DNA of 56,986 bases, from contig NZ_VDGI01000009.1 of NCBI RefSeq assembly GCF_006861825.1, positions 1 through 56,986 on the forward strand, in the 5' to 3' direction. The position numbers and the translations under genes were made by a program. This DNA is from Psychrobacillus vulpis. GTDB taxonomy: Bacteria > Bacillota > Bacilli > Bacillales_A > Planococcaceae. This document shows, piece after piece, positions 17,820-50,462 of this stretch. The stretch's first letter is position 1; every line of letters starts with the position of its first letter. The notes beneath the pieces are model-generated. The model saw only the letters and a program-made list of their open reading frames with translations. It searched no databases and was not told where the DNA came from.

Positions 17820-17849
17820 TGGAGGTGGCAGGATTTGAACCCGTGTCCA
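17820..17849 (-). repeat. ssrA 3'-end-like sequence (possible old attachment site)
   Basis: TGGAGGTGGCAGGATTTGAA continuing to CCCGTGTCCA matches ssrA 50112-50141 at 26 of 30 positions, in the same orientation. It contains the T-arm-like sequence and acceptor strand but no full tRNA or tmRNA. It is best read as a relic attachment site or an ssrA fragment. Confidence 0.6.
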
Positions 17850-26322: not shown

Positions 26323-26424
26323 CAGGTCCTCCCCATTAGTCCGAGGGAACATAAAATACTCTTCAACATCCAACTAAAATCTATTAACCCTATTGATATC
26401 AAGCTATTTTAACACTATTAACGC

Positions 26425-26481
26425 CATGCACTCCACATGTGTGGAGTGTATGTGGCAACACAAGGGATGTTGGTGGGTTTA
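26425..26481 (-). repeat. Gene-end repeat, copy A (rlmCD/rumA-like)
   Basis: The minus strand reads CCACATACACTCCACACATG then TGGAGTGCATGGCG, in one frame encoding HIHSTHVECMALIVLK followed by TAG. HVEC-type ends are typical of uracil-C5 RNA methyltransferases (RlmCD/RumA), a known integration target. Shared with four other copies at 30.45, 32.24, 35.17 and 37.59 kb. No methyltransferase body precedes it. Confidence 0.65.
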
Positions 26482-26785
26482 ATTATATAAAATCGGTTCC
26501 CATTAAGCGGAATCGAGTTTTTTTACTAATCGTCTACTGTTGCTTATCCAAGGATTATCTCCTTCCTTATAATAACTGGTAAAATACGTTTATTAACTTC
26601 AATTAGGTTCTAGATGGTTGATTCCTCGACAATTATTTTTACTTGCTATTGCTCTGTTTTAATATTTGGATGAAATGCTATTATCCAAGCTTCTTTGCAA
26701 TCGCTTAAATAACCTTTTTCAACTACATAGATATTCGAAGTTTATGTGCTTTGCAATAAAAGAAAGGTGGGAAAGTTCCTTGAAT
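26482..26785. other. Intergenic stretch, no gene seen
   Basis: No supported gene. Only the short repeat to the left and the terminator of the DUF5677 gene to the right are recognisable. Confidence 0.4.
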
Positions 26786-26828
26786 AAAAAACGTAACAGA
26801 ATCTGCCGAAGCTTAATCCGTTACGTTT
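26786..26828 (-). terminator. Terminator of the DUF5677 gene
   Basis: On the minus strand AAACGTAACGGATTAAGC ... GCAGATTCTGTTACGTTTTT forms a stem with a TTCG loop and ends in a T-run. It lies 38 bp past the gene's stop. Confidence 0.75.
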
Positions 26829-26865
26829 ATATGAACTATTACAAAGCTAAAAGACAAATATAGAA

Positions 26866-27978
26866 CTATCTTTCTTCGCGAAGACTAAGCTCATCATTAA
26901 TAATTTCTTCTTCAACCTTCTCAAATTCTTCAAAAATTTCATTCATGAACTTACCCAATGTTTTTATATATATTAAATTGTCTATTGAAGGGTCCGTATT
27001 AAGATACGTTACTATAGTCTCATACAAAGTAAATATTTCTAGTTGTCCAGGGATTCTTAATCCTAAATTACTTGGACCAAAAATATATGCTGGCGATTCC
27101 ATACCTTCCATGTCTATTGTACCTAAGCTAGCAAATGTACCTAAAGGGCTTGAGTGTATTTGATAGTTCGCTTTCTGATAAAAAGAAGTAGTTTCCTCAT
27201 GAACTCTTATATGATTTTCAAGATCTTTAAAGTAAATACGTCTTTTTAGGTTACTAAAAATTGGTCTTGCCCATTCGTAATCCCATCTAAATTTATCTCC
27301 ATATTTTTTAAGAACCTTATGGTAGTTAATTTTTAAATCATTATAATATGTATTTTCTGGGGTAGTTTTCCCATAGTTTCTAAGTTCTTTATACTCCTCT
27401 ATTATTGATGCATCATTAAATCTAGTTAAAAGCTCTTTCAAAATCCTTTCATCATCAGAACACTTTAAAAATAGCAACAGAATAATTTTTGATTCATGGG
27501 CTGTTCGCCAACGAGAGAGTGCAGCATCTGCAAAGCCCCCCTCTAAAAGATAAATTATTTCCTTTGCTAAAATAATCTGTTTTGCAAGTAACTTCATAAT
27601 TGTATAATATTTCAAAGTATGTTCGGAAGTATTCTCATCTAATATCTTAATTTCCTTTGATTTATTTATATCATTAGCACAAATTTCTTCAGTAATAATA
27701 ATAAACCCATTAAACAAAGCTAAAGGTTTTAACCATCGTTGTTTAATGCGTGATCTAAATTCGCAATGTAATAGCCTTTCCGATTCCAAAGGTTCATACA
27801 TATTATCTTTCAAAATTTGATAAAAACCCTCGGCAATATTATCGAATAAATCTTCATCAAGTGAATTTTCAATGGCCTGTAATAATATATCTTCAGACAA
27901 TTTCTTTCCTTCTCGTTCATATTGCTCAGATATATTTTCTACAGCTTTATTGAATAATTGTTCGAAAGTTAAATTCAT
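26866..27978 (-). CDS. DUF5677 family protein
   Basis: A 370-residue protein with the DUF5677 hallmark around residues 145-165 (LEGGFADAALSRWRTAHESK), followed by further helical blocks and a segment ANYQIHSSPLGTF near the C-terminus. The family is largely helical; members often occur in variable and defence-rich loci, with no established activity. The ATG has GGGGGG five bases upstream. It stands alone between copy A of the gene-end repeat and the membrane-protein module. Confidence 0.85.
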   Translation of the reverse strand: MNLTFEQLFNKAVENISEQYEREGKKLSEDILLQAIENSLDEDLFDNIAEGFYQILKDNMYEPLESERLLHCEFRSRIKQRWLKPLALFNGFIIITEEICANDINKSKEIKILDENTSEHTLKYYTIMKLLAKQIILAKEIIYLLEGGFADAALSRWRTAHESKIILLLFLKCSDDERILKELLTRFNDASIIEEYKELRNYGKTTPENTYYNDLKINYHKVLKKYGDKFRWDYEWARPIFSNLKRRIYFKDLENHIRVHEETTSFYQKANYQIHSSPLGTFASLGTIDMEGMESPAYIFGPSNLGLRIPGQLEIFTLYETIVTYLNTDPSIDNLIYIKTLGKFMNEIFEEFEKVEEEIINDELSLREER

Positions 27979-28087
27979 TATTTCCCCCCTGAATTTCTAT
28001 TAGTCTAAACTTATATCTTTGAATAACACTTCTAACCTTTTAATTGTAGTAGTACTTTACTATTGTATTTATCATAATTCTAATTCT

Positions 28088-28309
28088 TTATATTCTTAGT
28101 CTATTACTCAATTCAAGACTCGATATCAAATAACTAGATAATAATTCTGTTCTATTATCTATATTCTCAATGGTCCATGATTTTTTATTAACTATTTCAT
28201 TATTTAAAGAAAGTCCATTCTTAAATCCAATGTAAATTCCATTTTTATCTTGTTTATTCGATTTAATATTAAATGAAGAGTTGGACAAACTAGCATTGTA
28301 CGCTGTCAT
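28088..28309 (-). CDS. Small unknown protein, or second half of a frameshifted gene
   Basis: A 73-residue frame whose ATG overlaps the end of the preceding small frame by 20 bp. It contains KSNKQDKNGIYIGFKNGLSL and ends in a helical stretch. Only a weak TTAGGT lies upstream. It may be a real overlapping gene, or the continuation of the 28290-28448 frame after a one-base shift, which together would give about 120 residues. Not recognised. Confidence 0.4.
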   Translation of the reverse strand: MTAYNASLSNSSFNIKSNKQDKNGIYIGFKNGLSLNNEIVNKKSWTIENIDNRTELLSSYLISSLELSNRLRI

Positions 28310-28448
28310 TGGTTAGATTACCTAACTTATGTACATGCTCAAATTGTAATTCTTTTGCTAGCATTTCAGCACCATTTGCAATCATACAAATCCATTCATT
28401 CGGGAAACTTATATATACAACATTTAAAAAGAGCCTAGAAATTTTCAT
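28290..28448 (-). CDS. Small unknown protein following the membrane gene
   Basis: A 52-residue frame from an ATG at 28448 (TGATATTATG at the end of the membrane-protein gene, suggesting translational coupling). It reads MKISRLFLNVVYISFPNEWI and then a helix-like GAEMLAKELQFEHVHKL. It is probably the third gene of the module at 28.1-30.0 kb, or the first part of a frameshifted one. Not recognised. Confidence 0.4.
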   Translation of the reverse strand: MKISRLFLNVVYISFPNEWICMIANGAEMLAKELQFEHVHKLGNLTNDSVQC

Positions 28449-28452
28449 AATA

Positions 28453-28971
28453 TCATTTTCTGAAAGCTGATGAAAAAACATCATTCAACATTGTTATAAC
28501 TAAGTTAAATAAGCTAAGTATACCTAAACTAAGCATATTAATATAACATATTTTCGATATTTTAATATATAAAGGGTCTAATGGAGTTTTTACAAAGGGT
28601 CCAAATAAGGATATTAATCCTGTTATTAAAAATAATAAGGCAGTGAATACATACGGCCCTATAAAATCAATTAAAGCTTGTCCTTTTTTAACTTCATCAC
28701 TTTCATAACTTGCTAACTTTTTTAAATCTTCATCTCTAAATGCATCTTTACCCGCAACAAATAACGCTAAAGTAAGTGTCAATCCAGTCGATGATATTGA
28801 AAAATATTCTTCCATTTTAAATGATGAGAAATCTATGAAATTTAGCCAAAAAACACCGATAATTGAGCCAAATAAGAAAATCATCCAAATTATAAACAAA
28901 TATGAAGGCATTAAATTACTTTTTGCTTTCCAAATTACACTTATTGGATTCTTATAAAAATTCCCTTCCAT
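28453..28971 (-). CDS. Membrane protein with about four TM segments, unknown
   Basis: A 172-residue protein with hydrophobic segments at about 23-47, 53-68, 105-125 and 137-162, separated by a charged loop (GKDAFRDEDLKKLASYESDE). AAGGGAG precedes the ATG, and 17 bp separate it from the upstream 328-residue gene, so they form one operon. A small multi-pass membrane protein next to a soluble coiled-coil protein is the layout of several abortive-infection systems; this is inference from architecture only. Confidence 0.75.
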   Translation of the reverse strand: MEGNFYKNPISVIWKAKSNLMPSYLFIIWMIFLFGSIIGVFWLNFIDFSSFKMEEYFSISSTGLTLTLALFVAGKDAFRDEDLKKLASYESDEVKKGQALIDFIGPYVFTALLFLITGLISLFGPFVKTPLDPLYIKISKICYINMLSLGILSLFNLVITMLNDVFSSAFRK

Positions 28972-28988
28972 ATGGATAAGCTCCCTTC

Positions 28989-29975
28989 TTATAAGGTAAT
29001 ATCTAAATTAGCTACTTTTTTAATCTTTTTCACTATATTTTTCCCCTTATTCACGCCTTTACCAACCAATGATTTTAAATAACCATTTTTAGCTTGTTCA
29101 TTTAGCTCGGCTTTTAAACTTTCTAATTTTAAAGGTTGCCCATCTGGACCAACAAGAGTAGTATGTAATTCTTTGGCTTCTGAATTTTTTAATATATTAT
29201 GCCTATCTAATGGTGGATTACCGTTTGGATAAACAATTACAAAGCTAATTTCTGTATACTCTTTTTGTTCAAATGTTATTGATTCGTAAACGGGGTTAAT
29301 ATTAATTTTCCCTATTTTCCCTATAGCAAATGAGTCATTATTAATAATTCTTTCTAAAGCCGTTATATAATATAGTGCATCCTCTTCAGATTTACTTTCT
29401 ACTAATATATGTTCTTTTGTAGGCTTGTAATAAGCCTTTAGATTCAAAGGATTTACCAGTTGCTTCTTATTTTTGTCTACATATAATTTTATTTTATAAA
29501 ATTTTCTTAAATGAGTAATACCCGTACCGATCTTATTTTCGAATTCAAAATTTTCTTCCTCATCAATTTTGTCATCAGTAATTAAATTATATGATTTTAT
29601 TATAGCGGGATATTTTTTTTCGAATTCATTTCGCAATCGTTTACATTTGTCATTTAATTGTAAAAACTTTTTTGAATAAAAAATTTCTTCTTTTTCTTTG
29701 TATTTTAATAATATTTCTTTATACAGCTCATATAATTTGCTACTTTCGTCCTCTAATTTTATAAACCTTTCATTAAATTCTACTTCATTATTTAATTCAG
29801 GAATTAATTCATAGACAGTTTCTTTAAATCCTTCTTTTTGTTTTATTCCTATTACATGATCCAGTACAGCAGGAATTAGCTTATTAATTAAATATTCGAA
29901 TTCATTTTCATTTTTAAAACTAACTATAGTATTAGGTTGAACATTTAATTTAAAAACAAAGTAATTTATATTCAT
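28989..29975 (-). CDS. Soluble coiled-coil protein of unknown function
   Basis: A 328-residue protein. The N-terminal ~60 residues look like a compact beta/alpha unit (MNINYFVFKLNVQPNTIVSF), residues about 75-130 form a lysine/glutamate-rich coiled coil, and the C-terminal part (170-270) looks beta-rich with YTEISFVIVYPNGNPPLDRH. It ends in a basic tail (GKGVNKGKNIVKKIKK). No known domain. AAAGGGAATG leads the ATG. It heads the operon with the four-TM protein and the small frames downstream. Confidence 0.75.
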   Translation of the reverse strand: MNINYFVFKLNVQPNTIVSFKNENEFEYLINKLIPAVLDHVIGIKQKEGFKETVYELIPELNNEVEFNERFIKLEDESSKLYELYKEILLKYKEKEEIFYSKKFLQLNDKCKRLRNEFEKKYPAIIKSYNLITDDKIDEEENFEFENKIGTGITHLRKFYKIKLYVDKNKKQLVNPLNLKAYYKPTKEHILVESKSEEDALYYITALERIINNDSFAIGKIGKININPVYESITFEQKEYTEISFVIVYPNGNPPLDRHNILKNSEAKELHTTLVGPDGQPLKLESLKAELNEQAKNGYLKSLVGKGVNKGKNIVKKIKKVANLDITL

Positions 29976-30293
29976 TTACATTCCCTTTTCCTTTCTAAAA
30001 TTTTATACATCCAATTATATCCTAATAATGACCATAAATTATAATTTTAAGTATATTAATGTTTAATGAGCTATATGGTTATCTCTAACTCCGGAAAAGG
30101 GAAAGTCATTTAAAAATAAAAGAAGAAACCTGGTATGTAGGGGGGAATCAGAAAATACCGTTAATGATTGAAACAAGTCCCTAAGTACCAGTATACTTGC
30201 TCTTCAAATAAGGAATCGAGGTGAAGCGCTTGTTACCACTCACAGAGCTAGCACCAACCACCATCTAAGCTCGCTTCATTCATAAAATCACAG
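29976..30293. other. Intergenic stretch, no gene seen
   Basis: Promoter region of the 328-residue gene plus sequence with no supported gene. Nothing recognisable. Confidence 0.4.
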
Positions 30294-30350
30294 TAAAAGC
30301 AGACGGTCAATAAGAGGTGCATTACCGCACTTCTAAACCGTCTACTTTTT
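30294..30350. terminator. Long hairpin terminator
   Basis: AAAAGCAGACGGT and ACCGTCTACTTTTT pair, with an inner stem AGAGGTGC/GCACTTCT around ATTACC. No gene ends directly beside it. Confidence 0.6.
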
Positions 30351-30450
30351 ATGTTTCAATAAATATTAAGTTAGATATTCCAAAGACACACTCTAATAAA
30401 GCCATACGTAAAAAAAAAACGCTTAATTTTGGCTTAGTCTGTTAGTTAAA

Positions 30451-30513
30451 GCCACGCATAGCATTCACAATGTGGGGAGTCTATGTGGCATCACATGGGT
30501 GTTGGTGGGTTTA
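30451..30513 (-). repeat. Gene-end repeat, copy B
   Basis: GCATTCACAATGTGGGGAGT, then CTATGTGGCA...GGTGTTGGTGGGTTTA. In the frame shared with the other copies the minus strand ends CHIDSPHCECYAWL and TAA. Confidence 0.7.
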
Positions 30514-30880
30514 GAGTAACTTAACTTCATTTATTATTAAGTTGAAAAGAGTTTTTTATATACAGTATTGTTATCATAGGCCATCTGATGACAATTTTGT
30601 TAACACTGATACTTCCAGACATCATTTGAATCACTCTCCTATTTTGATTTGATTCAGTTAGATATATTCATCAACATTTCCTTTTTTTCGATGAATATTA
30701 TCACTTCGTAGTCTAAGAGTTATATTATACTTTGCTACAATCCTTCTCTTCAGCGCCGGATATATTAGTTGATATTAATCATTCCAGCAACAAACTCTTC
30801 GGAAAGTAAAGATATTTCCTTAATTATTTTATATATAAATGTTAAAATTAAAATATTATAATTAAGGTAGGGTATTCTAA

Positions 30881-31732
30881 ATGGAGATACTAAAATTACT
30901 AGAAATGTATGGATTAGATACAAACAATAGTATTAAAATTGTTAGACATCAAGATCCTCGTCTTGGAGTAGAGGGAATCCGTAAAGTATATGAAAATAAT
31001 GAGCTAGAACTATATCAGTCATACCAGGAAAAGGACAAATTTGAAATCGGAGATTATTTAATCTCTTCTATCGGTATAGAAAATTGTCAATCTCTATTTG
31101 TAGGTGTATATAAAGTCAAAGATAAAAAAAGTGTAAATGGTTTTCCTAGTAATTGTAATGCATCATTTAAAGGTTTAGCAAAAGTTAATAGTAAATTTAA
31201 ATATACTTTAGAAAAAATAAATAAATATGAAGATTTAAAAGGACGCGTCATTATAAACTTCGCTGATCGTACCTGGTGTCAAAATGCTAAGAATAAATCT
31301 ATAAAAGTCGTACAGATTTTACCCAAAGGTTATGTTAAAGAGTTTCCTGGTTATCTGGATTTTATTCTTACTTATCAAGAACTAAAAAATATTATTGATA
31401 ATAAAACTTCTAATAAAGTATGGCATGACACGCTTTCTAATGTAGCAGGTATCTACTTAATTGTAGACAAAGAAACAGGTCTTCAATACGTGGGTTCTGC
31501 CTATGGTAAAGACGGAATACTGGGTAGATGGAAAGTATATGCACAAAGCAAACATGGCAATAATAATCGATTAATAGTGTTAATTAACAAAGACCCTGAC
31601 TATGCTGATAACTTCCGTTTTACAATTCTTCAAACCATGTCAAAATCGTCTTTAAAAAATGAAGTAATTGCAAAAGAAAGCTTTTATAAAGAAAAACTAG
31701 GCTCTAGAGCTTTTGGATTAAACTCCAACTAA
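30881..31732 (+). CDS. GIY-YIG nuclease with a novel N-terminal domain
   Basis: A 283-residue protein. The C-terminal domain (about 185-275) is GIY-YIG: AGIYLIVDKETGLQYVGSAYG, then GILGRWKVYAQSKHGNN and a KESFYKEKLGSR helix, giving the tyrosines, arginine and glutamate expected. The N-terminal ~180 residues are unrecognised and probably bind DNA or sense a target. AAGGTAGGG precedes the ATG. Standalone GIY-YIG proteins of this layout include type II restriction enzymes and homing-like nucleases; without a partner methylase its role is open. Confidence 0.8.
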   Translation: MEILKLLEMYGLDTNNSIKIVRHQDPRLGVEGIRKVYENNELELYQSYQEKDKFEIGDYLISSIGIENCQSLFVGVYKVKDKKSVNGFPSNCNASFKGLAKVNSKFKYTLEKINKYEDLKGRVIINFADRTWCQNAKNKSIKVVQILPKGYVKEFPGYLDFILTYQELKNIIDNKTSNKVWHDTLSNVAGIYLIVDKETGLQYVGSAYGKDGILGRWKVYAQSKHGNNNRLIVLINKDPDYADNFRFTILQTMSKSSLKNEVIAKESFYKEKLGSRAFGLNSN

Positions 31733-31888
31733 TAAACCAAGTTTTTCTTAATTAACTTGCACTAAAATAGTTTTAAATTAAAGTCGGCTTTTTGAAATTT
31801 CATGTATTATTTATCGCCGATTTGTTAGATAGCTAGTTGCCCCCATTATATAAACAGAGTTAACTGTAATTAAAGTATTTTTTTTTGC

Positions 31889-32125
31889 TTATCCCTTTTT
31901 CCCCAGCCAACCATCTTTCATAGTAAGGAAAGACTTTTTCAAAATTATCTTTGTATATAGGGCAGGGCTTTTTAACTTACTAGATGGTTCCATTTCTGAT
32001 TTATACACAGTCAAAAATTCTCCATTGGAAACCAGTTTGAAATGGAGCCCTCTTTTAGTTTTTAGTCCTGTTCGATTTTCCACACTTTCTGTAACTAGAC
32101 TTTTCCAAACTTCTTCTGCATTCAT
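31889..32125 (-). CDS. Small unknown protein
   Basis: A 78-residue frame with an excellent AAAGGAGGAG before its ATG. It reads MNAEEVWKSLVTESVENRTG and ends KDGWLGKKG. The start signals look genuine. It could be a complete small gene or the 5' part of a longer one that has been cut. Not recognised. Confidence 0.55.
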   Translation of the reverse strand: MNAEEVWKSLVTESVENRTGLKTKRGLHFKLVSNGEFLTVYKSEMEPSSKLKSPALYTKIILKKSFLTMKDGWLGKKG

Positions 32126-32186
32126 TAGTACTCCTCCTTTAATTTAAATTAAAGAATCTACTATCGTTCTTTTAAATACATTCTAT

Positions 32187-32221
32187 AAAAAAGAACGGAT
32201 TCCTCTATTCGGAATCCGTTC
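32187..32221 (-). terminator. Terminator attached to gene-end repeat C
   Basis: GAACGGATTCC and GGAATCCGTTC pair around TCTATTC, with a T-run on the minus strand. It follows the minus-strand stop in repeat C, so gene end and terminator travelled together. The same hairpin accompanies copy E. Confidence 0.8.
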
Positions 32222-32242
32222 GTAAATCGTTAACCTAAATCC

Positions 32243-32306
32243 AACCAAGCAACCGCTTCGCAATGTGCAGAGTGTATGTGGCAACACAAGGATGCTGGTG
32301 GGTTTA
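32243..32306 (-). repeat. Gene-end repeat, copy C
   Basis: AACCAAGCAACCGCTTCGCA then ATGTGCAGAGTGTATGTGGC ... GGTGGGTTTA. The minus strand ends CHIHSAHCEAVAWLDLG and TAA, followed by the terminator at 32187-32221. Confidence 0.8.
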
Positions 32307-32444
32307 CTACTTTCTTAAGACCCTTTTCCTTCAGAAAACAGACTTTATCAAAACAAAAGTTTCCGGCTGCAAAGGAACTTGAAACTGAATAAAATAAGTA
32401 CACATGAGTTGATGTGATTCATTTTTTCTCTAGCTTTTTGAGAG

Positions 32445-32696
32445 TTACATCGTTTCACTGTCCCCGTCCCATAAACATTCTTTTCCAAAGTTATCAAGCA
32501 ATGCACGCACTTCATCTGATGATTTCGTGTTCATCAATTGATTTCTTAATTCACCAGCTCCACGGAATCCTTTGATATATATTTTGAAAAAGCGATGAAG
32601 CCCTGTGATTGAACGTGGTAGTGCTTCCGCATATTGATCTTGAAGATCAAGCTGCAGTCTTAAAAGATCAAGGTACTCTTTACTGCTATGCGAGCA
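32445..32696 (-). pseudogene. 3' fragment of a tRNA-dihydrouridine synthase gene
   Basis: The frame reads [39 protein letters not shown] and continues to a stop, matching the C-terminal helical part of Dus enzymes. Only about 83 of roughly 325 residues remain, with no start. The body of the gene is absent, so it is a gene-end relic inside the island. Confidence 0.75.
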
Positions 32697-32911
32697 TTTT
32701 TTTTATTCTTTCTAAAGATTACTGCTCAACAAAAAAAAATAGTAGAGCCATTATATTGAAGTTTATAGATTCATTTACTTCAATTTAACAATTATATTAG
32801 ATTAAATTAATTCTTCTCTATACTTTGTGTTTCACCAGTAGTATCCGGCTTTGCAAAAAAAGTCAGACTCGGTTAAGGTCGGACTAAATAATATGTTACC
32901 TAACATTACAT

Positions 32912-33118
32912 TCAACTTATATATACTGGTCCTCCAAAGCCCGGGTTCAACAACTTTCCATAATACGGTTCCATGACTTTCTTCACTCTGAAATACCGAT
33001 CTTCATTTTTGGCTCCTGATAATATATAAAAGGACTCTATGTGCTGATAAACAGGACTAAAATGACTGTTATCACTAAAAATCAGGATATTTTCCTTGTC
33101 ACAGCTGTATAAAGCCAC
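32912..33118 (-). CDS. In-frame continuation after the stop of the nuclease gene
   Basis: A 68-residue frame directly following the TAA at 33119-33121, in the same reading frame, beginning with GTG. It reads as protein-like (SFYILSGAKNEDRYFRVKKV, then GKLLNPGFGGPVYIS). No ribosome binding site is present. Either the last fifth of a gene interrupted by a nonsense codon, or a coupled small gene. Not recognised as a domain. Confidence 0.45.
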   Translation of the reverse strand: MALYSCDKENILIFSDNSHFSPVYQHIESFYILSGAKNEDRYFRVKKVMEPYYGKLLNPGFGGPVYIS

Positions 33119-33919
33119 TTATTCCACATGATAAACCATATGATTATCTTCTGATAAGAACACTCTAAACTCTTTAAAGAATATTTTCGAGTTACTTCCA
33201 GATTTAATTTGCTGCATATATTTGTTAATTCGTCTTTCTTCTTCTCTAATGTTGAATGTAATTCTATCGATTACCACAATAATATCAAATTTATAATTAT
33301 CTATTGCCTTTATAATCTGAAGTTCATACTCTCCCCAATTTACATTGTATTTTAGCTTATTTCTTACTTCTTCGTTATTAAGTTCAATCAAGAAACCACT
33401 GATTTGAGGTATAATGTGACCCCATAAATCATGTTTAGCTAACTCATTTTCCACTATAATAACTCTATCCAATTCATAATCATATAGAAGACCATCACAA
33501 ATTCTTCTACCTAATTTTTTTTTGACATCATAATATATTGTATTCTCTCCAAATATGTTTTTATAAGCCTTCTTGACAAAATCTTCGTACTCATTTTCAA
33601 GTTCAAAGGCGATTTCTTCATATACCTTATCACCTATGAATAATTTTATATCATTTACTAAATATTTCTTATTTAGTTTTATTACATCCTTATCCGTAGT
33701 TGCTAATCTATACCTTTTAGGCTTATAATTTTCATTCACCTCAAAAAGCTCTGAATAACGTTGTGAAAGATCTCTGGATATCATATTTATATGTCCTTGA
33801 GGACCATTTTTATTTTCCCCAAATATATTCTTATCAATGAGCTCATAAATATCTCTCGTAGTCATCCAGATATTGTTGTTTTCATTAAACACTTCTACTA
33901 TTTTATCAAACAAAGCCAT
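33119..33919 (-). CDS. HTH-plus-PD-(D/E)XK-like nuclease, probable restriction enzyme
   Basis: A 266-residue protein. The first ~75 residues form a winged-helix unit of the HARE-HTH kind (WMTTRDIYELI ... SRDLSQRYSELFEV). The middle contains RRICDGLLYDYELDRVIIVENELAKHD (residues ~140-165, split here by function: an acidic residue, then E-N-E), compatible with a PD-(D/E)XK core. GGAGGGTG leads the ATG. It is divergent from a Dam-type methylase gene 126 bp away, so a type II-like restriction-modification pair is likely. The frame continues past its stop (see 32912-33118). Confidence 0.65.
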   Translation of the reverse strand: MALFDKIVEVFNENNNIWMTTRDIYELIDKNIFGENKNGPQGHINMISRDLSQRYSELFEVNENYKPKRYRLATTDKDVIKLNKKYLVNDIKLFIGDKVYEEIAFELENEYEDFVKKAYKNIFGENTIYYDVKKKLGRRICDGLLYDYELDRVIIVENELAKHDLWGHIIPQISGFLIELNNEEVRNKLKYNVNWGEYELQIIKAIDNYKFDIIVVIDRITFNIREEERRINKYMQQIKSGSNSKIFFKEFRVFLSEDNHMVYHVE

Positions 33920-34044
33920 TTAACACCCTCCATTGATATTGTGGGCTAATAGCTGATGTTTTAGTACTAAAAAGGTAATTCCCCCCATATATATTTAAAT
34001 ATCAACAAATAATGAGTCCCACTTATCTAAGAATGGAGGGTAAT

Positions 34045-34842
34045 ATGAGAAGTCCAATTAAATGGGTTGGCGGAAAATACAAATTGGCAAAACATCTCGT
34101 TTCAATAATACCACCTCATGAAGGCTATGTTGAAGTTTTTGGCGGTGCTGGTTGGGTCTTATTTGCCAAGCCAACATCAAAATGGGAAGTGCTCAACGAC
34201 TTAGATAACAATTTATTTAACTTTTGGCATGTAATAAGAAATCAAAAAGAAGAATTCATTAAAAGCTTTCAATATGAAATAATTAGTCGTACAAGTTTCA
34301 ATAATTACAAACAAATATATAAAAGTAACTCTTATAAAGACTCTATTGAAAAGGCCCATATTTTATATTACCTATTAGAAGCTGGTATAGGAGCGAGTTT
34401 ACCTGACGGTGGCGGGAGTGGATTTGGTGCTGCTAAAGATAGAAGTAGGTTAAGACTAGATAAGCTTCCGGATGATATTGAAAAAGCCTACGATAGACTA
34501 ATTAATGTGACTATTGAGTGTAAAGATTTTAGAGAAATCATTAAATTCTATGATAGTCACACAACCTTTTTCTATTTAGATCCTCCTTACCGTAATACAA
34601 GGCGTACTTCATACCCCGTCGGTAACTTTACTGATAAAGATTACGAAGACTTATACCTATTATGTAAAGATATTAAAGGGAAATTTCTCCTAACCCTAAA
34701 TAACGACCCTTTTATTCAATCACTATTCTCTGAATTTACCATTCTTGATAAAAGAGTATATTATAATGTAAGTACCTCTAATAAAGGTAGAGGAGATTTT
34801 TCAGAGTTAATTATTTTAAATTATTCACAGTGCTATTCTTAA
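34045..34842 (+). CDS. D12-class (Dam-like) adenine-N6 DNA methyltransferase
   Basis: A 265-residue enzyme. The N-terminal IKWVGGKYKLAKHLV and VFGGAGWVLF form the SAM-binding motif, and FYLDPPYR (Asp179-Pro-Pro-Tyr) is the catalytic motif IV. It should methylate adenine within a short site, often GATC-like for this class. ATG at 34045 follows GGAGGG; the frame begins 11 codons earlier. It is divergent from the putative nuclease, whose cutting it would block. Normal length, no sign of damage. Confidence 0.9.
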   Translation: MRSPIKWVGGKYKLAKHLVSIIPPHEGYVEVFGGAGWVLFAKPTSKWEVLNDLDNNLFNFWHVIRNQKEEFIKSFQYEIISRTSFNNYKQIYKSNSYKDSIEKAHILYYLLEAGIGASLPDGGGSGFGAAKDRSRLRLDKLPDDIEKAYDRLINVTIECKDFREIIKFYDSHTTFFYLDPPYRNTRRTSYPVGNFTDKDYEDLYLLCKDIKGKFLLTLNNDPFIQSLFSEFTILDKRVYYNVSTSNKGRGDFSELIILNYSQCYS

Positions 34843-35164
34843 TCCAGTGATACTTCAATGGAGTAATTGACTGTTATAAAATAAAGCAGTCGAAGTCCAA
34901 GAATCTATTACAGATCCTTGGCCCCATCTGACCATCATCTCTTTAAAATATCCCCCCTCATTTCCACACATTATCGTTCACGTTTTTCTCGATTTTTAAT
35001 AAAAATTTTCGAACCCATTCATTTTTCCAAGGCTTGTGGCGGAGAGTTTTATCGTGTTTTACTCACGAATTTCACGAAATCATTATTCCAAACTGAGCGG
35101 GAAACTCATACATAGTTATTTTAAAAATGAAGTGAATATTATGGGGTTACACTTATAATAACTC
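34843..35164. other. Intergenic stretch, no gene seen
   Basis: No supported gene. AT-rich and without a clear terminator for the methylase gene. Confidence 0.4.
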
Positions 35165-35230
35165 CAACCAAGCAACCGCTTCGCAATGTGCGGAGTGTAT
35201 ATGGCAACACATGTGGTGCTGGTGGGTTTA
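35165..35230 (-). repeat. Gene-end repeat, copy D
   Basis: AACCAAGCAACCGCTTCGCA then ATGTGCGGAGTGTATATGGC ... GGTGGGTTTA. Minus strand ends CHIHSAHCEAVAWLELL and TAA. Nearly identical to copy C over 64 bp but without the attached terminator. Confidence 0.8.
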
Positions 35231-35470
35231 TTAATCATTGTAATACTTTTAGGAGGATAAGTTTTAACTCTCCTCAATTCTTGTCGAAACTGAACATTCT
35301 TGTATACCAATTGCTAAATATCAATTTCGTATTCTACTTAAAATGGTGACGAAACCAAATTTATAAAGAAGGGTGTCACCAATATTTTATAGAAAAGCTA
35401 CTCTTTTGTTCAACTTTCACTAGCACTTTTAAACAATCCGTAATCAGTAAAAAAATCACTCGTAACAACA

Positions 35471-37480
35471 CTATACATTTGCAAAAAACTCCTTAGTAGC
35501 AATTTCAACGCCTTCGATCAATTCAGAATCGTCTATTTTCGAACGTTGTTTAATTATTTGTTCTACTGCATCTTCCACTATATTTTCTCTAGCATATCTG
35601 CGACTACCTAAATCGTAGCTTGCTTTATACATATCTTTTAGTTTAGATTCCAACGACTTATTAAACACGATTTCTTGAATTTCCGTAAATTCAGCATCCG
35701 TCATACTAATTGACATTACTATATCAATATACTCTTCTTTTAATTGAGCAAACATTTCGATTCTGTCATCTTGAATGAAATGGTCAATGACTTTCTTAGA
35801 ACCAACCGTTCCGACGATTCCACCAGCAACTCCGGCAAATGCCCCCACTACAGTACCGACAACATTTCCCGCACCAGGAATTACGGAGCCTAACAAGGCG
35901 CCCGCACCTGCACTTGCACCAACTGCTGCCAGAAAACCACCTCCTGCCACTAGAGTATTCTTTAATAACTGTTGACTTGAAATTCTTCCTGTGAGCGAAT
36001 TGAAGATATTAGGCACCATAACTATACCGAATGAAATAACCATACCAGAACGTTTAGCCACTGTTTCCGCCATGATTTTTTTACCCGTTTGTGAAGCGAT
36101 CCTAGCAGTCATAATTTTTGTAATTTGCTGCGATCCCGCATAAACTACCGTTCCCATTACTAAAGTTTTAGTTCCAGCTTTTGCTGCCATAACAGCAGCG
36201 TCTTTTGTTTCAGCACCAGACCATTTTGCTTGTGCGAACACAATAGCAAAACTTATTCCTGAAACTGGCAAGGATTGAACAACTCCGTCAAGTGCATCGT
36301 ATTTTAATGAAGTAAGATTGCCACCCTTAGCAATCAGTTTAGACTCTGTCCAAGTAACCTGTCCTTTTCTAATTATCTTGTAAGCATCTTTTGGATTTGA
36401 ATGTTCTGGAACTTTCCCTTCACCTATTTTCCCTTTCATTAGTTCAATCGCTTCATTATATTGATCCTTAGGAACTTCTAGTTGCATACCACCATATTTG
36501 TATTCTCCTCCATCTACTTTTGACTTAAACGCAGCGTTTACAGAGTTTCTTGCACTAGATAAATATTTTGTTTGAATTCTTGTTGAACCAACAACACGAT
36601 CAGCACCATCCTTAGCATTGCCTTGCCCAACTCTTTGTACTTTCAAAAACGGATGCTTAATTTTGTCTATTAAATCATTTGCATATTCAGCAGCAAATCC
36701 ATGTCCTTGAGGATTGTTAACAATCCCATTTAAAACTTCCTCATGAAAGTGTGAATCAACATTAGCATAAACCGTCCCCATTGCACCTATTGATAAAGGA
36801 ATAGCACCCGGTGTTGTCATCAAGTTTTTTTCATATTTATCAAAATCAACTTGGATCTTTTCTTTGATGATGCCTGTTTCAATATCATTTGTATATCCAG
36901 TATTAATAAGCGAGTTGATAGTTAGCACTAATGCTAGAGCGTATTGTTCATTACCATCTATGTGAAGCTTTTGAATTTTCCTTCTGAAATAGTAGAACTT
37001 AATTACCTTTTGTTCTGGAATATATTTAACTTTCCAAAGACCTGCAAATGGAAAAAATTCCGAAGTTATTGTACCCTTTTCCTTTTTCCCCTTTTTCTTA
37101 TCTTGCTCAACTATTTGATAGCTTGCAAAAATCCCCTCTTGAGCTAGTAAGATACCATACTCTTTAAATTCCAGTTCTTCTTTGCTTCTGATTGGAGAGT
37201 AGCCGTAAAATTCAAGGTCGTTAGCATCAATAGCTTTCCTGAAAGTAGAATCACTATTTACAAACCATTTTGCACGACCGTAAGGAAGCTTTTCGCCAGA
37301 AAGCGAAAAAGACTGATGGGCAATATTATTGAGCTTATTACGTACAACATCAGGATCATAATTGTGAATTCCTTCAATTTTCTTTTTCCATCCTCTAAAC
37401 TGAATTTCGGTTATTATCTTTTCATAGTTTATTGCACCAACAACTGCTAATGCAATAACTCCTATTATTACTATTGACAT
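35471..37480 (-). CDS. Large membrane-associated protein with a nuclease-like QxK motif
   Basis: A 669-residue protein. One N-terminal TM segment (2-20) is followed by a soluble region. Around residues 285-305 lies GNAKDGADRVVGSTRIQTKY, whose D...QxK spacing resembles QxK variants of PD-(D/E)XK nucleases. A glycine/alanine-rich hydrophobic stretch (about 505-566, glycine-zipper-like) and a helical C-terminus follow. GGAGATG leads the ATG. A single gene between repeats D and E. A membrane-tethered or pore-forming effector is possible; the catalytic reading is inference. Confidence 0.7.
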   Translation of the reverse strand: MSIVIIGVIALAVVGAINYEKIITEIQFRGWKKKIEGIHNYDPDVVRNKLNNIAHQSFSLSGEKLPYGRAKWFVNSDSTFRKAIDANDLEFYGYSPIRSKEELEFKEYGILLAQEGIFASYQIVEQDKKKGKKEKGTITSEFFPFAGLWKVKYIPEQKVIKFYYFRRKIQKLHIDGNEQYALALVLTINSLINTGYTNDIETGIIKEKIQVDFDKYEKNLMTTPGAIPLSIGAMGTVYANVDSHFHEEVLNGIVNNPQGHGFAAEYANDLIDKIKHPFLKVQRVGQGNAKDGADRVVGSTRIQTKYLSSARNSVNAAFKSKVDGGEYKYGGMQLEVPKDQYNEAIELMKGKIGEGKVPEHSNPKDAYKIIRKGQVTWTESKLIAKGGNLTSLKYDALDGVVQSLPVSGISFAIVFAQAKWSGAETKDAAVMAAKAGTKTLVMGTVVYAGSQQITKIMTARIASQTGKKIMAETVAKRSGMVISFGIVMVPNIFNSLTGRISSQQLLKNTLVAGGGFLAAVGASAGAGALLGSVIPGAGNVVGTVVGAFAGVAGGIVGTVGSKKVIDHFIQDDRIEMFAQLKEEYIDIVMSISMTDAEFTEIQEIVFNKSLESKLKDMYKASYDLGSRRYARENIVEDAVEQIIKQRSKIDDSELIEGVEIATKEFFANV

Positions 37481-37539
37481 ATCAACATCTCCAAATCGAT
37501 AAAATAATTTATTTTATCTATATACATTCAATAAAAAGA

Positions 37540-37568
37540 GAACGAACTCCTCTATTCGGAATCCGTTC
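37540..37568 (-). terminator. Terminator attached to gene-end repeat E
   Basis: GAACGAACTCC/GGAATCCGTTC around TCTATTC; one arm is slightly mutated compared with the copy at 32193-32221. Flank TACATTCAATAAAA is also shared. Confidence 0.65.
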
Positions 37569-37590
37569 ATAGATTATATTATGCTAACTT

Positions 37591-37635
37591 CAACCAAGCG
37601 ACAGCCTCACAATGTGGTGAGTGCTGGTCATGGTA
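37591..37635 (-). repeat. Gene-end repeat, copy E (shorter)
   Basis: CAACCAAGCGACAGCCTCAC, then AATGTGGTGAGTGCTGG. The minus strand encodes HDQHSPHCEAVAWLKLA and TAA, with a terminator 20 bp further. The 5' portion found in the other copies is missing. Confidence 0.75.
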
Positions 37636-37676
37636 CAGACATTAAATATAGATGTAGTAGAATCACCTATTTTAAG

Positions 37677-39158: not shown

Positions 39159-42100
39159 TTAAGATATATCCTCCGCATTCCGATTTATTCGATCAATAAT
39201 ATCCAAAATCCCGCGCGCTTTTGGCAGCTGGTCTTTGAACACTACCATTATCCCACCTACTGAACTAAACGGGTCTTGCTGTAATGCTTGGCGCTCTAGT
39301 GTACCGTTTTTCACGATGTAATCAATGATAATCTCGACGAACTGCGTTTGTTGGAGATTTAGATTTTGCTCTGAAATAAACGCTGAAAATGCCTCAATAG
39401 CTGCTTGGCGGTCTAGCCCTACTACTTTACGAACAAGCTTTGTTACTGGTGTATCACCGTAGTCTTTTTCGTACTGCTCTTTTGAACCAAGCTCCGTCCA
39501 CAAGATTTGTTCTAAATATGCAACATCCTGCTGCGTTAAAGATTTATTATTCCGTAGCTTGTAAATTGCAAGTGTATCTTCGTGCTGATGCTCTTTTAAG
39601 TAATGCTCGACCTTTTTGCGATAGCTTTGGAGGTCATTGACGTTTAAAATAGAAGCATTTTCGGCAACAGTCATTACTTCATCTTGGAAATCGGTATAGT
39701 AGATTTTCTGATTTGAGCGTTCGATATAACGAATTAAATCACGCATTGCCACACGTACTTTTTCTAAATCTGCTAACGAAGCTGTTTCCCAAAACTCTGT
39801 TGTTCGCACTTGATCGATGACATCTTTTTGCTCTAATACTTGCGGAATTGTACCTAGCTTTGAAAGTGCTTCAGCTGTATCTACAACACGTCGAATTGGT
39901 TTCGTTGCGTTATTTGATTGCAAGCTTGCTATTTCAATCGTCAGCATTAAAAGGTCAAAGCGTTTTGCTAATTCATCATCTTCAATCGGTACAATTAACG
40001 AGGAAATGTTTTCTTTTACTTCATTTGTTTGTACGACTGATAACGCCTGCCAGCTAGCCTCATTTTGATATTTATGGACATATTGTAAATACTGACGCAC
40101 ACGGAAGTTTTCATCATTTAAAGCACGGACATCCGATAAAATCTCTTTCAACAACTGCTCACGATATGAAATGAATGGCACTTCTTGATACTGTAGCGAC
40201 TGCAATTCGCGCACAATATCAACTTTCGAATTAAATAGCTTTTCTGTTAATGTTTGGGTATTTTTTGTTTGTTCCCCTTTTTCGTTCTCACGGAAATACT
40301 CAAAGTTTCTTAAATAGTCAAAAATCAAAAAGTACTCCTTATCCATCCCCGGGCCGAATAAATCTTTACGTAGGCGTGTACCTCGACCAATCATTTGCCA
40401 GAATTTCGTTTTCGAGCGTACCTTTTTGAAGAACACTAAATTCAAGACATCTGGCACATCAATTCCTGTATCTAACATATCTACTGAAATAGCAATTTGT
40501 GGCATTTTGTCCGTTGTTGAAAAATCATCAATTAACGATTGATAATATTCCACGCTATAATCGATTACTTCCGCAAAATTGCCTCCGTATTCAGGGAATT
40601 TCAAGTCAAAACGCTCTTTAATAGCCATTGCGTGCTTATGGTTTTTCGCAAAGAGTATCGTCTTCCCTAATTTGTCTCCACCTTCAACCTTCAAGCCATG
40701 TTCCATTAAGTCATTTAATACTTGATCGATTGTATTTTTGTTAAACACAAAGTTGTTAATGGCTGAGCTATCAATATCTTTTACTTGCGGATCGTCTTCG
40801 AAAATTTCATCAAACTCTTCTTTTTCGTCTTCTGATAAGTCCTCATAGCGAATACCATCATCTAAAATTTTCATCGTTGTTTCACGCGTACGATAATCGA
40901 CTAAATATTCGTCCTCTACGGCTTTTGATAATTCATAGGCAAAGGTTGGCACACAATTTTCCAAATCGAAAATCGTATACGTATTTTTGTCTAGCTCATC
41001 TTTTGGTGTTGCGGTTAAGCCGACAAGCATCCCATCAAAATAATCAAAAATACTCTTATACTTTTGATAAATCGAACGGTGCGATTCATCGATAATAATC
41101 AAATCAAAATGGCCGACTGTAAATAAACGATTACCATCTTTACTCTTTACTTCATCGATGGCATTCATCATCGTTGGATACGTAGAAAATACCATACGAG
41201 CGGCTTCAGGATCTGATTTTTTCTCTACCATATTGCTTAACGTCAAATTTGGTAGCAATGTATTAAAGTTACGAAACGCTTGTTTTACTAAAGAAGTACG
41301 GTCTGCGAGGAATAGCACATTTTTAATCCAATGGTTATTCGTTAATACATCGACTAACGAAATGGCAGTTCGTGTTTTACCGCTACCCGTTGCCATTACA
41401 AGTAGCCCTTTACGTTGGTTATTGCTAAACGTATCGCAAATCGCTAAAATCGCCTCTTTTTGATAGTAGCGGTTTGTAATGTTGTCGTTAATGTTGATAT
41501 TTGTTAACGGCTGTTTTAATTGACTACGGTCGATTAACAATTGCAGCTCATCTTGTGTATAAAAACCCGATACTTTTCTAGCAGCGTAATTATCATCCCA
41601 AATAAACGTTTCAAAGCCATTTGTATAGAAAATAATCGGTCGTAATCCTTGTGCTTGCTCTATACAATCCGCATATAACTTCGCTTGATTACGCCCTTCT
41701 TTCGGATCACGTGATGTACGTTTCGCTTCGACAACGGCTAAAATTTTGCCACTTTTTCCGCGCAATACATAATCGACAAAACCTTCACCTTTTACGTTCG
41801 GCATACCTGCTACAGGATACTCTAGTTCAACATTTTTGCCGATTTCCCAGCCTGCTAATTTTAAATCTAAGTCGATATAGCGTTTACGTGTTTCGAATTC
41901 CGATATCGTATCAACATCAAAATCATAATCTTCCTGTGCTTCTACTCTATTTGCAGTTAACAGCTCTCGAAGCTCTTCGTTTTGCTTACGTAATTCTTCG
42001 AGTGATTGGTCCTTTGCACTTAGCTTTTCATATAAATTACTTAATTCCTCAGGACGCTCTCGTTTGTAATCTGCGTCGTATAGTAACGCTTCATTAAAAT

Positions 42101-42497
42101 CAGTCGCCGTATATTCCTCTGCGTAGCAATAATCTATCCACGAAACAAATTGATGTAAATTATGAAGAGAAAGTACTGCCTCATCACGCGTAATCGCAAC
42201 ATTCGTATGTACAGCTGCATTACCAAGCTTCACGACATATTTCATCATTGGTAAAAGTTCTTCATCTATAATCCCTAGAAAGTGGCGATCATGAATTAAA
42301 CTTGAAAGATTGTCTTGATACGGAACTTTTACATCGTTATCAAACTGATACACCCACTTAACCGCAAGCTCCAACGCACGACGCGACAAAATCGCAACCG
42401 TCGCAGGGCTTACTTGCATAGCCTTTTCCGCTTCAAAACAGGCATTGGCAAAGCTATTAAAGGTTTGTTTATCTTTTATAAAATCGAAGTTCAACAT
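39159..42497 (-). CDS. hsdR: Type I restriction enzyme R subunit (HsdR)
   Basis: A 1112-residue motor and nuclease subunit. In order: an N-terminal DUF4145-like helical domain (1-110), a coiled linker, the HsdR-type nuclease domain with GFVDYVLRGKSGKILAVVEAK (acidic residue plus ExK, about 235-260), then SF2 helicase motifs including ATGSGKT (lysine near 374) and IIIDESHRS. It cuts unmodified DNA after translocation. AAAGGAG leads the ATG. Twenty-six bp follow hsdS. Base composition is less AT-rich than the neighbouring modules. Full length, no visible damage. Confidence 0.95.
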   Translation of the reverse strand: MLNFDFIKDKQTFNSFANACFEAEKAMQVSPATVAILSRRALELAVKWVYQFDNDVKVPYQDNLSSLIHDRHFLGIIDEELLPMMKYVVKLGNAAVHTNVAITRDEAVLSLHNLHQFVSWIDYCYAEEYTATDFNEALLYDADYKRERPEELSNLYEKLSAKDQSLEELRKQNEELRELLTANRVEAQEDYDFDVDTISEFETRKRYIDLDLKLAGWEIGKNVELEYPVAGMPNVKGEGFVDYVLRGKSGKILAVVEAKRTSRDPKEGRNQAKLYADCIEQAQGLRPIIFYTNGFETFIWDDNYAARKVSGFYTQDELQLLIDRSQLKQPLTNININDNITNRYYQKEAILAICDTFSNNQRKGLLVMATGSGKTRTAISLVDVLTNNHWIKNVLFLADRTSLVKQAFRNFNTLLPNLTLSNMVEKKSDPEAARMVFSTYPTMMNAIDEVKSKDGNRLFTVGHFDLIIIDESHRSIYQKYKSIFDYFDGMLVGLTATPKDELDKNTYTIFDLENCVPTFAYELSKAVEDEYLVDYRTRETTMKILDDGIRYEDLSEDEKEEFDEIFEDDPQVKDIDSSAINNFVFNKNTIDQVLNDLMEHGLKVEGGDKLGKTILFAKNHKHAMAIKERFDLKFPEYGGNFAEVIDYSVEYYQSLIDDFSTTDKMPQIAISVDMLDTGIDVPDVLNLVFFKKVRSKTKFWQMIGRGTRLRKDLFGPGMDKEYFLIFDYLRNFEYFRENEKGEQTKNTQTLTEKLFNSKVDIVRELQSLQYQEVPFISYREQLLKEILSDVRALNDENFRVRQYLQYVHKYQNEASWQALSVVQTNEVKENISSLIVPIEDDELAKRFDLLMLTIEIASLQSNNATKPIRRVVDTAEALSKLGTIPQVLEQKDVIDQVRTTEFWETASLADLEKVRVAMRDLIRYIERSNQKIYYTDFQDEVMTVAENASILNVNDLQSYRKKVEHYLKEHQHEDTLAIYKLRNNKSLTQQDVAYLEQILWTELGSKEQYEKDYGDTPVTKLVRKVVGLDRQAAIEAFSAFISEQNLNLQQTQFVEIIIDYIVKNGTLERQALQQDPFSSVGGIMVVFKDQLPKARGILDIIDRINRNAEDIS

Positions 42498-42523
42498 TTA
42501 CTCATCTCCTTTGTGAGTTAGGG

Positions 42524-43738
42524 TTATTGTTCGTAGAATAGCTCTCCTTTGAAGGCTTGTTGGAGTAATGAATTGAGCAAACATTCCATTTCAGCAAGGG
42601 ATTTTTGATTATAACTTTTAATTTTCTTTATCTCCTCCATCTTGTTAACAAAAATTAATTGTTTATCTATCGGTGGAACTATTATCTTAAATTCTTTTAT
42701 AATCCCTACATTAATTATACCCATAGTACCACCATGAGCATTATTTGAAATTTGCTGTAGTGTTGTAGGAAGGGACATTAAATACTTAAAGAAATAGGGA
42801 TTCACCTTATTAGATTCAAGAGATATTTTCATTAAACGTGGATTTATGATTCCTGGTTCAAAATCATTTGGTACTACACTTAATTTACCAAATGTACCAA
42901 CTAAGCTTATTAATATATCCCCCGGTTTAATGCTACAATTAATTAATTCTTGATACTTCTTTTCATCTATATAATAATCTCCGTATGACAACTCATCTCT
43001 TATTACTTGCTCCTGACCATAAATTTTATAGCCTTCTTTTACATAAAATTCTTTTTTCAAAGCAGATCCAAAAGGTCCTGCTTTTATAGCATGTTTCTTA
43101 CCATCAGATAGATATTCGATTTTTTGCTTTTCAAAATTACTTTTAATGTTATCCCCAAACATCTCTAAAAACAAACTTTGTGTTAATTCATCTAATGCTA
43201 TGATTTGGGATTGACGTTTTATTACTAGCAATTTTGCTTGATTAAGAATTCGGACAATTTTATTTTGTATATTTTTTTCAGGAACTTTAATAACTAAATC
43301 CCCAATATCTTTTAAAGAGAGGTTAAGTTGAGCTACTCCTTGTTTTCTCTTTTCAAACTGTTTTATTACAAAATCAGATTTCAAAAAATATAACAAATAT
43401 GGAATACTTACTACATCACCTTTCAACCTAATAATTGCCAAGGCTTGATTTGTATTAGCTGGTAATATTTCTTTTGTTACTACCGCAACTTTACCAATTG
43501 CACCTGCAATGGAAAACAGAATATCATTTTCTTTCAACTTAGAACGTTTAAGTTTTTCATTACATTCTTCTGAAATATGTTCCAATTTATTACTTTTAAA
43601 AGTGCCGCTTTCATCTATCGACTCAATTTTAACAAAATTAATTCCTGTACTTTGAAATGCATAACCTAATGTTGTTGGTGTCGTACCCTTAGTTATTAAT
43701 TCCGTAATTTCTGATAGCTTAATATCTTTAAATTTCAC
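42524..43738 (-). CDS. hsdS: Type I restriction specificity subunit (HsdS)
   Basis: A 404-residue specificity subunit with two target-recognition domains (about 1-160 and 205-370), each followed by a helical spacer. The first shows NDILFSIAGAIGKVAVV and the second GDILISLVGTFGKLSVV, the characteristic half-repeats. The start is GTG at 43738, led by GGAGGG and only three bases after hsdM. It decides the bipartite target site, which cannot be predicted from sequence alone. More AT-rich than hsdM and hsdR, as usual for swapped recognition modules. Confidence 0.94.
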   Translation of the reverse strand: MKFKDIKLSEITELITKGTTPTTLGYAFQSTGINFVKIESIDESGTFKSNKLEHISEECNEKLKRSKLKENDILFSIAGAIGKVAVVTKEILPANTNQALAIIRLKGDVVSIPYLLYFLKSDFVIKQFEKRKQGVAQLNLSLKDIGDLVIKVPEKNIQNKIVRILNQAKLLVIKRQSQIIALDELTQSLFLEMFGDNIKSNFEKQKIEYLSDGKKHAIKAGPFGSALKKEFYVKEGYKIYGQEQVIRDELSYGDYYIDEKKYQELINCSIKPGDILISLVGTFGKLSVVPNDFEPGIINPRLMKISLESNKVNPYFFKYLMSLPTTLQQISNNAHGGTMGIINVGIIKEFKIIVPPIDKQLIFVNKMEEIKKIKSYNQKSLAEMECLLNSLLQQAFKGELFYEQ

Positions 43739-43741
43739 TAC

Positions 43742-45232: not shown

Positions 45233-45286
45233 ATTTCCATAACCTCCATGTAGAATATTGCCTTGGTTGACACCATTTCTTATTGT

Positions 45287-50087: not shown

Positions 50088-50141
50088 CCACGTTTGCAGC
50101 CACTTTATGTATGGAGACGGCGGGATTTGAACCCGCGTCCA
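50088..50141 (-). repeat. Right attachment-like site (ssrA 3' end and flank)
   Basis: The last 30 bases of ssrA plus about 24 bases of outer flank (GATATGACCACGTTTGCAGC) are matched at 22672-22722. A 30-base part is also matched at 17820-17849. Confidence 0.7.
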
Positions 50142-50462
50142 GAAACTCTAACACTTAAGCTTCTACGCGTGTATCTTGCCTATTTAGGTTTCGCGTAGCA
50201 TTATGCCGACAAGCGGGCGTCCTGTACGCTAACTTGAGAGTCTCTTGTTGGTAGCTCAAGTGGCACTACCAACCGTATCCCACTAAAGTTGAGCTCTACC
50301 TAGCCACATGGGCGATGGATAGATAAAGCAGATCCGAGCTTACGCTGCGAATGCTAAGTTGTTGTTTGTTTTGCCTGTTATTATAAGGTCCGTTTTTACG
50401 GAGCCGAGCCTCCGACGCGCAACTCAAGCTCAGACTATCCCTGTCGAATCCATAACGTCCCC
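50112..50462 (-). ncRNA. ssrA: Transfer-messenger RNA (tmRNA)
   Basis: About 351 nt. The 5' end GGGGACG pairs with CGTCTCC at the 3' end, forming the acceptor stem, with the T-arm GGGTTCAAATCCC inside; CCA is not encoded. The start GGGGACGTTATGGATTCGAC is typical. The tag frame (50375-50340) reads GKTNNNLAFAA then TAA, giving AGKTNNNLAFAA after the alanine carried by tmRNA. It rescues stalled ribosomes with SmpB, whose gene lies directly upstream. It is also the apparent integration target of the island. Confidence 0.96.

Follow-up and report, generated by a model that had tools for sequence, protein, structure and literature searches.

Streptococcal serine integrases insert in rumA and exchange its 3' end (PMC4701971), and the integrative and conjugative or mobilizable elements (ICEs and IMEs) of streptococci have a single serine integrase in rumA (PMC4701971, PMC5357655). 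Staphylococcal and Enterococcus cassette chromosomes (SCC and ECC) possess multiple attachment (att) sites downstream of rlmH, multiple attR being recorded in 16 of 32 ECCs (PMC6222049), and Listeria prophages sit between rlmCD and fosX (PMC8386393). Here we analyse five gene-end repeats in a 56,986-nt stretch of Psychrobacillus vulpis contig NZ_VDGI01000009.1 (the window; contig C76 of host genome G000, where G, C and L label genomes, contigs and loci). We propose that the repeats are, very probably, att junctions resulting from serial insertion at the 3' end of rlmCD, driven by large serine recombinases (LSRs), and that together they form an SCC-like accretion array.

The likeness to streptococcal ICEs and IMEs concerns the target family, the use of a serine integrase and the exchange of the 3' part of rumA and of the integrase gene; the LSR frame of P. 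vulpis also overlaps the rlmCD end. However, the streptococcal elements are large, occur singly and bring genes for conjugation or mobilisation, whereas the arrays described here consist mostly of 1-4 kb cassettes without recombinase, reach eight copies per gene and keep the old ends. They have in common with SCC and ECC variable cargo and LSR insertion into an rRNA methylase gene at its 3' side. Unlike those elements, they target rlmCD (TIGR00479 rumA protein) and not rlmH, have no Ccr equivalog, contain far smaller cassettes and display displaced ends of several types. The one LSR that was tested is similar to the CcrB profile, at 122.9 bits (cut-off 900), and scores 97.1 against CcrC (cut-off 900) and 88.5 against CcrA (cut-off 700), below all three thresholds, and the SCC att motif TATCATAA is absent, by eye, from the five window copies. 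Listeria prophages occupy the same insertion place in a related bacterial order, but they are whole prophages, one per site, and no array is described in the passages on them. An earlier note, made from the window sequence alone, knew of no described system with such an arrangement; insertion of serine integrases in rumA (PMC4701971) and multi-att SCC/ECC (PMC6222049) contradict this. Keyword searches of the literature revealed no arrays that are compact, mostly lack a recombinase and retain former gene ends; on the strength of these searches, such arrays would be a variant of a principle known from rumA elements and SCC/ECC.

A repeat search of the window places a 53-base core on the plus strand at 26410, 30443, 32236, 35159 and 37585, with identities of 66, 70, 100 (the reference, 32236), 94 and 68%. 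Profile matches begin at 26405, 30439, 32230, 35153 and 37578 (E 1e-9 to 2e-23), and the complete features span 26404-26487, 30437-30517, 32229-32311, 35152-35235 and 37577-37637. The full unit measures about 83 bases; the fifth copy covers only its left part, profile positions 2-50, which is the gene-end half. Read on the minus strand, the left half encodes a protein end of the type HCE/HVE..., followed by a stop. From left to right the ends are ..HVECMALIVLK* (the HVE-type end ..THVECMALIVLK), ..HCECYAWL*, ..HCEAVAWLDLG*, ..HCEAVAWLEL.. and ..HCEAVAWLKLA*; the copies at 32230 and 35153 were read by eye, as the automatic motif took the wrong frame for them. The second of these ends is similar to HCECCAWLELAD of the LSR-bearing genomes G034 and G189. 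The other half of the unit is an arm, P1 (..GTTGCCACATACACTCCACA) in the first four copies and P2 (..CAGCACTCACCA) in the fifth. We also considered whether the plus strand of the arm is coding and rejected this, because the copies differ there by single-base indels. Terminator-like inverted repeats adjoin the third and the fifth repeat (32187-32227 and 37534-37574) and are common to both, and a GAACG..CGTTC inverted repeat is also found 3' of rlmCD in 8 of 91 genomes. The five are direct repeats in one orientation. The earlier note had located them correctly, between modules, and had rightly seen their common frame with its stop and the terminator shared by two of them. Its description of them as near-identical holds for two copies only, since overall identities to the reference of 66-94% show that not all deserve this term. 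A profile search for further copies, which it had advised, yielded two additional matches in the P. vulpis genome at E<=1e-3, on C30 and C23, and many in relatives.

In the search of relatives, 96 of 261 genomes gave a match at E<=1e-3, bare rlmCD ends being included and at most three candidates scored per genome. The copies are clustered, and in arrays of 10 relatives the copy that closes the row coincides with the genuine 3' end of an open rlmCD frame. A protein encoded by such a frame reaches 564 bits against TIGR00479 (cut-off 183.55) and is therefore a rumA equivalog. The guess that the repeats stem from a gene of rlmCD/rumA type was accordingly right. We then collected 91 rlmCD 3' regions, drawn from about 153 rlmCD positions that were listed for 252 matching genomes. 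Eighty were newly fetched and 11 had been selected earlier for holding repeats, so prevalence in this set is biased. The gene end itself matches the repeat profile in 76 of the 91, and in 54 of them at least one copy lies beyond it, 117 copies in total (E<=1e-3), which follow the target gene as a series of att-like sites. All 117 have the orientation of the rlmCD gene end. One exact arm pattern occurs in 20 stretches, including records of Neobacillus, Ureibacillus, Lysinibacillus, Peribacillus, Paenisporosarcina, Mesobacillus, Ectobacillus, Bacillus and Metabacillus. A plasmid search found no match, and viral contigs gave no exact match of one arm pattern.

We suggest the following mechanism. 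Crossover would take place close to the end of the gene, at a His codon that is conserved (CA|TTGTGAA or CA|CGTGGAG). The incoming element would provide a new rlmCD end next to the gene, while the previous end, together with its stop and in many cases the terminator, would be displaced to the far side and joined to the other arm of the element. Each repeat would then unite an arm of the element with a displaced former gene end, and the row would represent a layered record of insertions with the latest nearest the gene. Several observations fit this scheme. RlmCD C-termini are conserved through FPxxxH and then switch abruptly among distinct ends (such as HCEAVAWLEL, HCECCAWLELAD, HVECCALLVLDK, HVECVSQLILKE, HVEVVTELTLKE and HVECVALMSRV). 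Several of these types reappear within arrays, for instance HVECVSQLIFKND in a repeat of G003 and HVECC[VY]LLKLR in G028 and G125, so that the 3' end of the gene is exchanged and old ends recur in repeats. The type HVECVALMSRV (G264, G274) presumably is ancestral, judging from Bacillus proteins. In the window, the ends shift from right to left through HCEAVAWLKLA, HCEAVAWLEL, HCEAVAWLDLG, HCECYAWL and HVECMALIVLK, as expected if old ends are displaced outward. The copies are not equal units; each is a recurrent element arm with a variable old gene end.

Further support comes from filled and empty sites. DNA directly 3' of rlmCD, with its first 318 bases masked, was compared between genomes, and best matches of at least 300 bases were retained. 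The best match again lay at rlmCD in 36 of 80 genome pairs. Among 35 pairs in which the partner has repeats and the match is not at the rlmCD site, 26 matches begin right after a repeat (2.4% expected by chance). There are 17 genome/repeat cases in which the sequence past a repeat directly adjoins rlmCD in another genome, as in 5.1 kb at 97% identity (G093 and G107 against G109) or 2.5 kb at 95% (G178 against G036). When 18 pairs were compared side by side, 15 of them (14 repeats) had an alignable core, in which mean identity jumps from 38% in the 24 bases preceding the His codon to 82% in the 36 that follow. Insertion at the rlmCD 3' end, with its breakpoint at one codon, is thus seen in the relatives. 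Arm P2 forms the far junction of the G034 LSR element and of most empty-site cases; P1 is also among them (G089 and G108 against G091). G034 combines an LSR, a far-end repeat and four empty-site partners. The same data bear on the idea that the repeats are interspersed intergenic repeats like miniature inverted-repeat transposable elements or repetitive extragenic palindromes, resembling rlmCD by chance. A few lone copies elsewhere, for example on C23 of P. vulpis, at 2.86 Mb in G016 and on contig C2 of G032, would suit it. Since copies cluster 3' of rlmCD in a single orientation, each marking a filled or empty site at that gene, we find this idea hardly credible.

What enzyme would have made the junctions? 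In P. vulpis, contig C18 bears rlmCD and, after it in convergent orientation, an LSR frame of 573 aa with Resolvase, Recombinase and Zn_ribbon_recom domains, which overlaps the gene end (L120, frame 243-1964, rlmCD end near 311). At the same place, G189 has a 544-aa LSR and G034 a split one. With these three as queries, the 91 rlmCD regions yielded 39 LSR fragments, all convergent with rlmCD, of which 23, in 21 genomes, start at the rlmCD end or at a repeat; 1.2 were expected from 500 random placements, with a maximum of 6. Serine integrase genes hence stand at the junctions as open frames (G000, G189), as a split frame (G034) and as fragments (21 of 91 genomes). By eye, ELAD-type ends pair with G034-like fragments and HVECC-type ends with C18-like ones. 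The window itself retains an LSR C-terminal fragment (30236-30403, plus strand; 80% identity over 56 aligned residues to aa 160-214 of the G034 LSR), with two in-frame stops, 35 bp from repeat 2. LSR relatives in phages all have less than 60% identity. As regards conjugation or mobilisation genes, a weak Rep_trans match below cut-off lies near the LSR on C18. In P. vulpis an LSR fragment, a gene for a 658-aa membrane protein and a repeat also occur away from rlmCD, on C23 (L078, 7935-10348), and we regard this group as a cassette at a second site; the membrane protein gene follows LSR fragments in G006 and G010 as well, and precedes a repeat in G003.

Tyrosine integrases, too, typically duplicate a gene end, and one with gene-end specificity might be thought to have made the junctions. 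As these hold LSR genes and fragments instead, and a phmmer search of the 91 rlmCD regions with one tyrosine integrase as query found none, we judge it highly improbable. A candidate of this kind was noted at the G032 copy at 3.41 Mb, where neighbouring frames are broken relatives of a groEL-side integrase; it was set aside as coincidence.

LSR-driven serial insertion could have created the repeats in the distant past, and cassettes could now be swapped solely by homologous recombination between arrays. Most cassettes do lack an LSR, and a module with the tRNA-dihydrouridine synthase gene (dus) recurs between repeats at positions 1 to 4 in several genera, which recombination between repeats or shared genes could yield. 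Against this stand breakpoints at one codon and the presence of LSR frames, open over 573 aa in P. vulpis and 544 aa in G189, and we consider such a purely homologous exchange rather unlikely. Ends of homology are enriched at repeats (177 of 829 bins, against 49.7 expected from shifted positions, sd 10.1), also after masking of the repeats (156 of 801, against 47.9). Among gaps of at least 150 bases, they are present in 93 of 104 repeat gaps vs 88 of 129 others (Fisher p 1e-4). Together with the empty-site pairs, this bears out the view that repeats coincide with module boundaries. The possibility of serial insertion at a gene end, which the earlier note had raised, is backed by the array-end rlmCD frames, these homology ends and the empty-site pairs.

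Comparison of sequences thus supports LSR-driven insertion at rlmCD as regards site, orientation, breakpoint, filled and empty sites and LSR genes or fragments at junctions. From this we infer that these LSRs carried out the insertions, and cassettes without LSR would have moved with help in trans. Several points speak against such an interpretation. Firstly, the window array lies on C76 and rlmCD on C18, so the array is not at rlmCD, and insertion at the rlmCD 3' end is not seen for this particular array; a tblastn search of the window with rlmCD matched the repeats alone. Secondly, an LSR is missing or unrecognisable in most cassettes, 16 of the 39 fragments lie away from any detected junction, three of the 23 near ones are the queries themselves, and some matches partly read the opposite strand of rlmCD. 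G034 holds the only near-complete element that includes a far repeat, and the arm there is P2, not the common P1 to which an LSR would have to be assigned. Further, 9 of the 35 pairs begin elsewhere than at a repeat, and the 17 empty-site cases are partly dependent, G089 and G108 sharing two. Conservation of neighbours across repeats is low (78 of 1694), in strong contrast to all long gaps; long repeat-free gaps within arrays give 40 of 491, so repeats are not clearly lower, and this control removes most of the contrast. Finally, recombination is deduced from the sequences, and no event was observed.

The present position of the window array may be explained by the tmRNA gene ssrA (50112-50462, minus strand). 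A direct repeat of its 3' end, identical in 26 of 30 positions, lies at 17820-17849 (12 mismatches at the second-best position in the window), and since the array is situated between the two, the stretch looks like an array-carrying ssrA island. The 32 kb from 17820 to 50141, with no recognised integrase, probably represent a decayed one, and the array would have been carried there from an rlmCD locus. Among four relatives of the genus with one chromosome, three have RNase R/ssrA 0.31-0.34 Mb from rlmCD, and in G013 the distance is about 1.7 Mb. At least 5 of 11 relatives have a tyrosine integrase no more than about 2 kb away from RNase R. Integration at ssrA was also considered as the origin of the repeats and rejected: ARAGORN, run on the first 20 array regions obtained from relatives, detected no tmRNA, so ssrA is not the home of the repeat.

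Between repeats 1 and 2 (26866-29975, minus strand) lie genes for a DUF5677 protein of 370 aa and two family-less proteins of 172 and 328 aa; between repeats 2 and 3 (30881-31732, plus strand) a GIY-YIG protein matching the PADLOC model UzuA (E 2e-87). The interval between repeats 3 and 4 (33119-34842) encodes a 266-aa protein without match on the minus strand and a D12-class adenine methylase on the plus strand, and that between repeats 4 and 5 (35471-37480, minus strand) a 669-aa protein with weak PADLOC matches to PDC-M09B and LeoB. These modules are as the earlier note described them, except that the one at 32.3-35.2 kb additionally holds a remnant of the 3' part of dus (about 32440-32690, minus strand; limits set by eye against L005), which matches the dus cassettes of relatives. 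The window stack is rich in likely phage-defence genes, although the arrays as a whole have mixed cargo. Type I restriction-modification genes (HsdR, HsdS and HsdM types, by eye) are seen to the right of repeat 5, at 39159-47092. We counted 117 closed cassettes with a median of 2168 bases, 45 of them with a single frame of at least 100 aa, and besides dus, a TetR-dehydrogenase pair (G036, G005, G012), DegV and a thiamine operon recur between repeats at differing positions. Among the 100 of 230 cassette proteins scanned with Pfam and PADLOC, transport and metabolism predominate, with some Gabija-like and other defence matches, so the notion of a specific defence array does not extend to relatives. 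An intact dus gene stands beside a P2-type repeat on the short P. vulpis contig C30 (L077, 4397-5677), and may belong to an rlmCD array beyond C18. Repeats also occur at contig ends between fragments of RHS/YD-repeat-like proteins in G043, a metagenome-assembled genome of Bacillales (L073, L074, L075).

Integrons keep cassettes in a row, one site each, with the sites in one orientation, and the rlmCD arrays are alike in all three respects. The repeats might then resemble attC sites, with single strands that fold and serve as substrate for a mobilising tyrosine integrase. Cassettes with a single gene and one site, ends that are imperfect inverted repeats, and single copies that fold to a stem with side hairpins (z -0.75 to -3.32 against shuffles, plus strand) are compatible with it. 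RNAalifold of 50 full copies, however, gave no consensus structure on either strand, a comparison of little power as shuffles gave zero too. None of the eight host matches to PF00589 is on C76 or C18, and phmmer with one tyrosine integrase query found none in the 91 rlmCD regions. Unlike in integrons, no IntI-type integrase was found with the arrays, no attC fold is supported and the anchor is the end of a housekeeping gene, the repeat being a coding gene end with an arm. An integron-like origin therefore appears extremely improbable to us. A functional parallel is another matter, and we put it forward tentatively, as possible rather than probable: Bacillales rlmCD arrays could be a serine-recombinase counterpart of integrons. 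Minimal cassettes without recombinase, each one gene or operon with one junction site, would accumulate at the end of a housekeeping gene in the order in which they arrived, and LSRs supplied in trans would exchange them between genera. The displaced gene ends could then be read as layers, and whole stacks could move to other islands.

If LSR-driven serial insertion at rlmCD is true, then a 45-base gene-end signature and the arms would delimit cassettes, including family-less candidate defence modules, in many Bacillales, and displaced gene ends would yield the relative order of insertions. The LSRs with their att pairs would suggest themselves for genome engineering. LSR-driven accretion, best known from SCC, would then build compact arrays at another rRNA methylase gene.

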